From: Natrinema salifodinae | GTDB taxonomy: Archaea > Halobacteriota > Halobacteria > Halobacteriales > Natrialbaceae | Direction of reading: 5' to 3' | Assembly: GCF_900110455.1 (NCBI RefSeq) | Contig: NZ_FOIS01000002.1 | Span: 434,001-498,000, forward strand | Length of the DNA stretch: 64,000 nt | Part shown: one piece after another, positions 2,939 through 3,142 of the stretch | How positions within the stretch are numbered: position 1 is the first letter of the stretch | Layout of the letters: each line of letters starts with the position of its first letter | Notes under the pieces: generated by a model | Seen by the model: the letters and a program-made list of their open reading frames with translations, nothing else | What the model was told of the DNA's origin: nothing | Databases searched by the model: none | Position numbers and translations under genes: made by a program

Positions 2939-3041
2939 AGTCCCGTGGTGTAGTGGCCAATCATATGGGCCTTTGGACGTGTTCGGTTCAGTCCGTCACG
3001 GAAGACAGCCCATGACGGCGGTTCGAATCCGCCCGGGACTA
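2939..3041 (+). tRNA. tRNA-Gln(TTG) with a 30-nt intron
   Basis: Acceptor strands AGTCCCG (2939-2945) and CGGGACT (3034-3040) pair, with A as discriminator and no encoded CCA. The T arm is GGCGGTTCGAATCCGCC. The anticodon stem TGGGC/GCCCA encloses the loop CTTTGGA, giving anticodon TTG for glutamine CAA codons. The loop is interrupted after position 37 by about 30 nt (2977-3006), the usual archaeal intron site, to be removed by the tRNA splicing endonuclease at a bulge-helix-bulge. Introns in this tRNA are, to my knowledge, familiar in haloarchaea. The 3' end of the gene is also one arm of a long inverted repeat, which is unusual. Confidence 0.93.
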
Positions 3042-3142
3042 TTCTGCGACGAACGGACGTGAGGAGCGAATAGTCCCGGGCGGATTCGGGCCCAGAGGAC
3101 GAGCGGATTCGAGTCCTCGCGGTTCGAATCCGCCCGAAACTA
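3018..3142. repeat. Direct and inverted copies of the tRNA-Gln 3' end
   Basis: Four pieces of the tRNA T-arm/acceptor end lie within 125 bp. The gene itself supplies 3018-3041. A perfect 21-bp inverted copy of 3024-3044 occurs at 3068-3088, with 23 bp between the arms. A shorter inverted piece (GCGGATTCGA, 3103-3112) pairs with TCGAATCCGC at 3124-3133. A direct copy at 3119-3142 matches 22 of 24 bases of the tRNA end and is spaced 101 bp from it, as attL/attR-like duplications are. I read this as debris from repeated integrase-mediated events at the tRNA; the inverted copies are not explained by simple integration. Confidence 0.7.

Follow-up and report, generated by a model that had tools for sequence, protein, structure and literature searches.

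The tRNA-Gln(TTG) locus and its flanks

The DNA analyzed here, called the window, is a stretch of 64,000 nucleotides from Natrinema salifodinae, the genome of which is assembled in 8 contigs (4.27 Mb). A tRNA-Gln(TTG) gene is found on its + strand at 2939-3041 (Rfam RF00005, 50.7 bits). Comparison with intron-less relatives sets the limits of the two exons (2939-2977 and 3008-3041) and of a 30-nt intron (2978-3007, all on the + strand). This intron is present in the window and in most relatives, and is missing from four of the 30 tRNA-Gln loci compared (L011, L022, L027, and L028). ARAGORN, at its default setting, called no tRNA anywhere in the window.

The tRNA is directly followed by a unit of 101 bp, the 3' module (3042-3142, +), which relatives have or lack as a whole. 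The module opens with a hairpin (hairpin 1), the type A core of which (3046-3069, +) exactly matches a 24-nt motif present at other Halobacteria tRNA ends. It continues with an inverted copy of the tRNA 3' end (3068-3088, +), perfect over 21 bp with 3024-3044, then with a second hairpin (hairpin 2, approximately 3091-3120, +) of the cassette class F5 (CCAGA..TCGCG), and closes with a direct copy of the tRNA 3' end (3119-3142, +). The copied segment of the tRNA (3018-3041, +) comprises the T-arm, the 3' acceptor strand and the discriminator, and the direct copy is identical to it at 22 of 24 positions (92%). On the other side, a 65-bp 5' module (2874-2938, +) consists of a direct copy of tRNA positions 1-12 (2874-2885, +; 12 nt, all identical), a stem-loop hairpin (2890-2908, +), an inverted copy of the tRNA 5' end (2915-2921, +), the counterpart of which matches the own tRNA in related Gly loci, and a second hairpin or hairpin-like stretch. 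Read outward, the order is the same on both sides: the tRNA end gives way to hairpin 1, an inverted copy and hairpin 2, and a direct copy of the own end closes the unit.

A preliminary description of this locus had reported direct and inverted copies of the tRNA end, and sequence comparison within the window finds every one of them in place. The shorter inverted pair among them (3103-3112 with 3124-3133) is nested in a 13-nt pair (3100-3112 with 3124-3136, 92%). What that description did not contain is the extent of the unit, 101 bp built of two hairpins, and the second copy system upstream of the tRNA (2874-2938). The inverted copy takes part in both hairpins, as the 3' arm of the first and the 5' arm of the second, and the inverted repeats described are the arms of these two hairpins. 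When the stretch was folded and compared with its own shuffles, a z of -9.1 was obtained and 0 of 200 shuffles folded as well, which shows that the structure is not due to chance.

Upstream of the 5' module, a conserved stretch, GAAAAGTAACACTATTGTG (2830-2848, +), precedes tRNA-Gln in many relatives. It is probably the tRNA promoter, and both modules would probably lie inside the tRNA transcription unit. The gene just upstream of the tRNA (2272-2838, +) seems to be disrupted, since a stop and a frame change separate its two ends, which share a frame. These ends carry what we take to be CxxC and HNH-like motifs, and the 3' one also precedes tRNA-Gln in several relatives.

Occurrence in relatives and at other tRNA genes

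The tRNA and both its flanks were searched in 61 genomes, and the best 30 matches, of which the window is one, were read. By this reading, nine of the 30 tRNA-Gln loci carry a full module, two carry a partial one, and 19 carry none. Full 3' modules at tRNA-Gln were also found in other families (G058, G042, G040, and G043) and are absent from some genomes of the same genus. The preliminary description had asked for this comparison, since the copies could have been an assembly error or a flank common to all relatives. An assembly artefact is rejected, because the arrangement recurs in many independent genomes. As to a common flank, the arrangement is indeed widespread, but it is patchy, as the 19 loci lacking it illustrate. 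The feature is a unit of a repeat family, neither ordinary flank nor integration scar.

Modules are not restricted to tRNA-Gln. They are found at the tRNAs for Arg, Asp, His, Val, Leu, Ser, Lys, Thr, Met, and others, each copying its own end. Copies were counted when they scored at least 17/22 within 300 nt of the tRNA, and the ends of other isotypes, set against the same flanks, served as control pairs. Such a copy of the own 3' end was found for 11 of the 44 tRNAs of this genome (controls, 16/1808 pairs) and for 23 of 43 in G058, a genome of another family (81/1722 pairs); it was found for none of the 31 tRNAs that represent other orders of this phylum, which are those of the 27 loci outside the order of the window (9/724 control pairs). 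These counts exclude the own Gly-gcc tRNA, situated at a contig edge, and one control tRNA, Glu-ttc, with a short flank, and they cover 43 of the 44 tRNAs listed for G058. In a larger set of 201 tRNA loci, biased in that many were fetched by module motifs (the 44, 43, and 31 tRNAs above are the only unbiased rates), 120 loci have a copy, with 30 anticodons represented and 28 tandem arrays, as against 6/201 with a random end from another isotype. This set was derived from 207 unique tRNA loci by removing six without a recognised T-loop; 11 viral loci were excluded.

It was stated in the preliminary description that a direct copy alone fits integration at a tRNA whereas inverted copies do not, and this is correct. 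The corresponding explanation, in which the two direct copies are the attL and attR sites of a lost element, can point to the direct repeat itself (3018-3041/3119-3142, 92%), which spans the T-loop to the discriminator, a usual att region (PMC8371274). By reading, the module at L041 is also separated from its tRNA and preceded by a short tRNA end, as would be left by a later integration. Nevertheless, the approximately 77 bp between the copies of the window contain no ORF of at least 60 aa that could stand for an integrase or cargo, the same hairpins are shared by tRNAs that would need different integrases, and the units include conserved hairpins and inverted copies and are also found at tRNA 5' ends, duplicating them too. 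Lacking an element between the copies, and in view of the shared hairpins and the 5' copies, an integrase scar is rejected as scarcely credible.

Placement and conservation of hairpin 1

The 24-nt pattern of hairpin 1A contains no tRNA sequence. In the genome collection it has 59 matches on 53 stretches, all in haloarchaeal records. Of these, 39 start 3-9 nt past a tRNA end and 15 past a tandem copy; by reading, the remaining five are likewise preceded by a tRNA end or its copy (three of them at a distance from any recognised tRNA, one at a His tRNA missed by the program, one at a contig start). A viral source was considered and rejected; hairpin 1A has 0 matches in viral_contigs. A second loop type, hairpin 1B, is present in 20 of the 99 genomes of the order. 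A tRNA lies no more than 500 nt upstream of 32 of its 34 matches read, in which a few sites are counted more than once; L334, among these 32, does not belong to a module by a reading of 30 loci from 38 listed matches.

The loop of 1B is conserved, GCGARC-AAATYC-GYGAGC, and is able to fold into a helix that spans two tandem G-A mismatches. Next to these mismatches comes a pair that is A-T in 22 unique contexts, G-C in 11, A-C in two, and G-T in one (Fisher p 1.4e-6, a value overstated since contexts share ancestry). The flanking 4-bp stems, of which there are 19 distinct ones, are paired in 137 of 144 cells, against 0.69 with shuffled arms. As for hairpin 1A, its outer stem is built on tRNA-specific end bases, with at least four such pairs in 47 of 56 unique flank pairs (out of 58) against 0.55 with shuffled partners. 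The loop also has a polarity: among the 201 loci, hairpin-1-like loops are in the sense orientation on the tRNA strand in 24 cases and in antisense in 0.

Tandem inversion duplications can produce direct-inverted-direct copies at short inverted repeats. It can be asked whether local fold-back template switching at the tRNA end, as a small tandem inversion duplication and without selection, produced the module. The direct-inverted-direct order of the copies, the self-complementary T-loop, and the tRNA-specific inverted copies, at the 5' end and in the window, all agree with such events, and quasi-palindrome and template-switch mutations can also yield this order at short inverted repeats. Such mutations would not, however, produce conserved cassettes common to several loci, and they tend to perfect the arms instead of preserving G-A mismatches. 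Here, the turning points hold conserved hairpin sequences common to several tRNAs and families, and the G-A mismatches, which template switches homogenising the arms would erase, are conserved, from which we infer that the hairpins are maintained by selection. Local template switching alone is thus disfavoured, the cassettes being common to different tRNAs, and is very improbable.

Specificity of the copies

At the 5' side, the hairpin motif occurs in 22 of the 99 genomes, and 28 of its 29 matches are situated 16-99 nt upstream of a tRNA gene, in most cases one for Gly or Gln and in one case for Thr. In 20 Gly loci, the 5' copy matches the first five bases of its own tRNA at 94 of 100 positions (4.70/5, against 3.69 for Gly tRNAs of different sequence). 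The inverted 5' copies of the Gly loci behave alike, with 4.85 for the own tRNA and 3.86 for Gly tRNAs of different sequence. Upstream of the tRNA-Gln of L010 (G019), the 65-bp 5' unit is present in tandem, in about three copies.

At the 3' side, the inverted copy resembles its own tRNA less exclusively. Its acceptor part scores 7.56 of 12 against the own tRNA and 7.06 against others, a weak specificity, and its T-arm part 9.74 against 8.61 of 13. A general tRNA-specificity of the inverted acceptor part was thus considered and found weak, the own tRNA beating 95% of the others in 19 of 144 modules. Other tRNA-Gln modules show a range of such repeats, with the perfect 21 bp of the window at its extreme. 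A weakly specific acceptor part is expected if the inverted copy travels with the cassette. When scored against other tRNAs, in 56 of the 59 matches (three with short flanks were dropped), the inverted copy is above every control in 9/56 and the direct copy in 28/56; the inverted-copy score is weak because T-loops are alike in most tRNAs.

Some direct copies, in L082, L107, L108, L119, L123, and L131, have an extra T-loop base (TTCACAATCC, TTCAATATCC), in different tRNAs and species; such a base would spoil a tRNA. A one-base T-loop insertion as a rule for direct copies was rejected, since it was found in only 9 of 64 when counted.

Hairpin 2 cassettes

Sorted by foot sequence, with crude class expressions and class limits set by the analyst that leave 46 of the 144 modules unclassified, hairpin 2 falls into classes F1 (44 modules, 13 isotypes), F3 (25, 10), F5 (10, 5), F4 (10, 3), and F2 (8, 3), with one F3 variant. 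The 17-mer at the boundary of the F1 hairpin is found in 59 of 99 genomes, and its backward-read control in none. Among the matches listed, 41 loci were read, 11 viral and 30 of the order; in the latter, almost every match stands at the end of a module that follows a tRNA, and two have no recognised tRNA nearby. The 11 stretches of viral_contigs that contain the F1 17-mer include a single one read as a module (L204), the rest lying inside tRNAs or in unrelated sequence. The module of L204 (13744-13909, on a viral contig from a metagenome) is of class F1 and belongs to a tRNA-Glu; the neighbouring ORFs are presumably phage tail genes. At the tRNA-His of 29 genomes of the same genus, a direct copy is present in 23, with differing cassettes at the same place. 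The combination of different cassettes at one tRNA with a direct copy of local origin indicates that one cassette can be exchanged for another, the direct copy remaining that of the local tRNA.

Sharing of cassettes does not extend to a close family within one genome. The nearest relative of a cassette lies in its own genome for 0 of 11 modules of this genome and for 4 of 21 of G058, with 0.5 and 1.9 expected from random labels, so that a REPIN-like burst within a genome is unsupported, the cassettes of one genome not being closest to each other. This bears on the possibility of a non-autonomous mobile hairpin element of the REPIN, PATE or SMR sort, which a single-stranded DNA transposase would insert at tRNA ends, duplicating them. 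Short strand-asymmetric hairpins with conserved mismatches, whole units present or absent between relatives, and cassettes common to many tRNAs would all suit such an element. Against it, the direct copy and the outer stem track the host tRNA, no within-genome family signal is seen, and the units sit at tRNA ends and almost nowhere else, unlike dispersed repeats. We regard a mobile hairpin element as unlikely.

Gain and loss of units

Related loci can differ by one unit. At tRNA-Gln, G022 and G008 show such a difference; both have a similar T-rich stretch, which in one genome comes after the direct copy and in the other after the tRNA. At tRNA-His, G007 has an extra tRNA-adjacent unit relative to G021, beyond which approximately 100 nt are nearly identical. 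These one-unit differences give no direction, because deletion between direct copies would leave the same pattern. In the 28 arrays, the copy proximal to the tRNA matches the tRNA better in 16, worse in four, and equally in eight (p 0.012).

We tentatively favour, while giving it somewhat less than an even chance, an explanation in which the units of this repeat family at Halobacteria tRNA ends are gained by recombination that re-copies the tRNA end, with hairpins under selection. In a gain, DNA synthesis or recombination at the tRNA end would enter the hairpin cassette of the module of another tRNA, then return into the local tRNA by way of the T-arm sequence, which nearly all tRNAs share, so that the local acceptor end would be re-copied. 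Recombination between direct copies may cause units to be lost or amplified. The hairpins would be selected as stem-loops of the tRNA-sense strand, either in the pre-tRNA or in single-stranded DNA. Re-copying accounts, with no need for a transposase, for the sharing of cassettes, for direct copies that are local, and for inverted copies of weak specificity. It should, however, be noted that no donor or intermediate was found, and that recent copying from one tRNA to another in the same genome is not supported, given the lack of closeness of cassettes within a genome (0/11 and 4/21). Moreover, the tRNA-specific 5' inverted copies and the outer stem of hairpin 1A imply that some local copying or compensation is also needed.

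A further possibility is that the modules form self-renewing hairpin arrays at haloarchaeal tRNA genes. Each gain would add a unit next to the tRNA and re-copy the tRNA end, the array growing outward, somewhat as a CRISPR array does at its leader, and the sense-strand hairpins would also act in pre-tRNA. The extra tRNA-proximal unit at the tRNA-His of G007 and the better match of the nearer copy (16 versus four) are hints in this direction; we consider it a quite unlikely reading.

Folding and transcription signals

The main rival to re-copying is that the modules are RNA elements of the pre-tRNA: hairpins and mimics of the tRNA end would act in the leader and trailer, for example by luring away or anchoring RNase P or tRNase Z, by stabilising the RNA, or by switching the precursor between the folded tRNA and the competing hairpin. 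The sense polarity of the loop at 24 loci to 0, the 5' side having the same polarity, and the covarying stems would be expected of such an element. The 5' unit is flanked by the probable promoter on one side and the tRNA on the other, the T-rich stretch of G022 follows the direct copy, and the T content past the last copy is raised to 0.269 from a background of 0.189. On the other hand, 33 of the 44 tRNA genes of this genome have no module. A TTTT occurs within 20 nt past the tRNA in 31 of 114 module loci and past the last copy in 15 of 114; being commoner after the tRNA, it suggests that transcription may often stop short of the module, so that the T-run signals are mixed. Nor does the module fit any Rfam family: with Rfam 15, only the tRNA itself reaches the gathering score, and the next best families are far below the cut-off.

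The preliminary description had proposed that a precursor hairpin could compete with tRNA folding. Minimum-energy folds of the tRNA with its module were predicted for the 111 loci within length limits: the tRNA 3' strand is captured by the module in 65, including that of the window, the tRNA keeps it in 39, and seven are undecided. Competition is therefore possible, but with 65 captured and 39 retained it is not a conserved property, and this variation counts against a pre-tRNA role. Taken together, we consider a pre-tRNA element possible, though on the doubtful side.

Comparison with known repeats

Copies of tRNA ends were not found described in the open-access literature searched, subscription papers lying mostly outside the search, and the family of tRNA-end hairpin repeats is apparently undescribed. 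Small hairpin repeats are already known, and what we rate as new is that tRNA ends are copied. REP and REPIN sequences with their RAYT transposases are, in the sections available, short extragenic palindromes, many per genome, the inverted pairs of which fold as single strands (Bertels and Rainey, 2011, PMC3116915; GTAG/CGTC REPs, PMC3733652). The tRNA-end units are likewise short inverted palindromes that can fold as single strands. REPs, however, are scattered extragenically, whereas 59/59 hairpin 1A and 32/34 listed hairpin 1B matches follow a tRNA or a copy of its end. The tRNA-end units also carry a local copy of the tRNA end and have no close within-genome family (0/11, 4/21).

The PATE and SMR elements of Haloquadratum walsbyi resemble the units in being from Halobacteria, palindromic, and of similar length (approximately 80-110 bp), and SMR-A elements insert within palindromes of other elements (PMC3119063, as far as the text available goes). 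In the same excerpts they show no target duplication and target IS605-type elements and PATEs, whereas the units have a tRNA end on both sides and their matches sit at tRNA genes. In Methanopyrus kandleri, about half of the tRNA genes are followed, after approximately 10 bp, by a palindrome, CGTTA-N9-TAACG, which was proposed as a 3' maturation signal (PMC5217627, partial text). This is another archaeal palindrome just downstream of tRNA genes, but in the part accessible it is a short motif reported as specific to M. kandleri and involves no tRNA copies; by reading, neither half, CGTTA or TAACG, is present within 3042-3142.

The units are palindromic repeats tied systematically to tRNA genes, on both sides, across an archaeal class and with covarying structure, and in the two genomes counted they accompany a quarter to half of the tRNA genes. 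If they act in RNA, they would be an unrecognised element of pre-tRNA processing in Halobacteria; if they act in DNA, tRNA genes would host a renewing repeat array that could shape the use of integration sites. Both readings are testable in culturable haloarchaea.

Some modules depart from the common arrangement. Those of L041, L097, and L082 (minus strand, 5336) lie behind a short tRNA-end sequence only, away from a whole tRNA gene, and were perhaps displaced by later integrations. In the flanks of the tRNA-Ala(cgc) and tRNA-Arg(gcg) of this genome (L138 and L166), a variant unit is found, in which a hairpin of opposite polarity is followed by a shorter direct copy without the T-loop.
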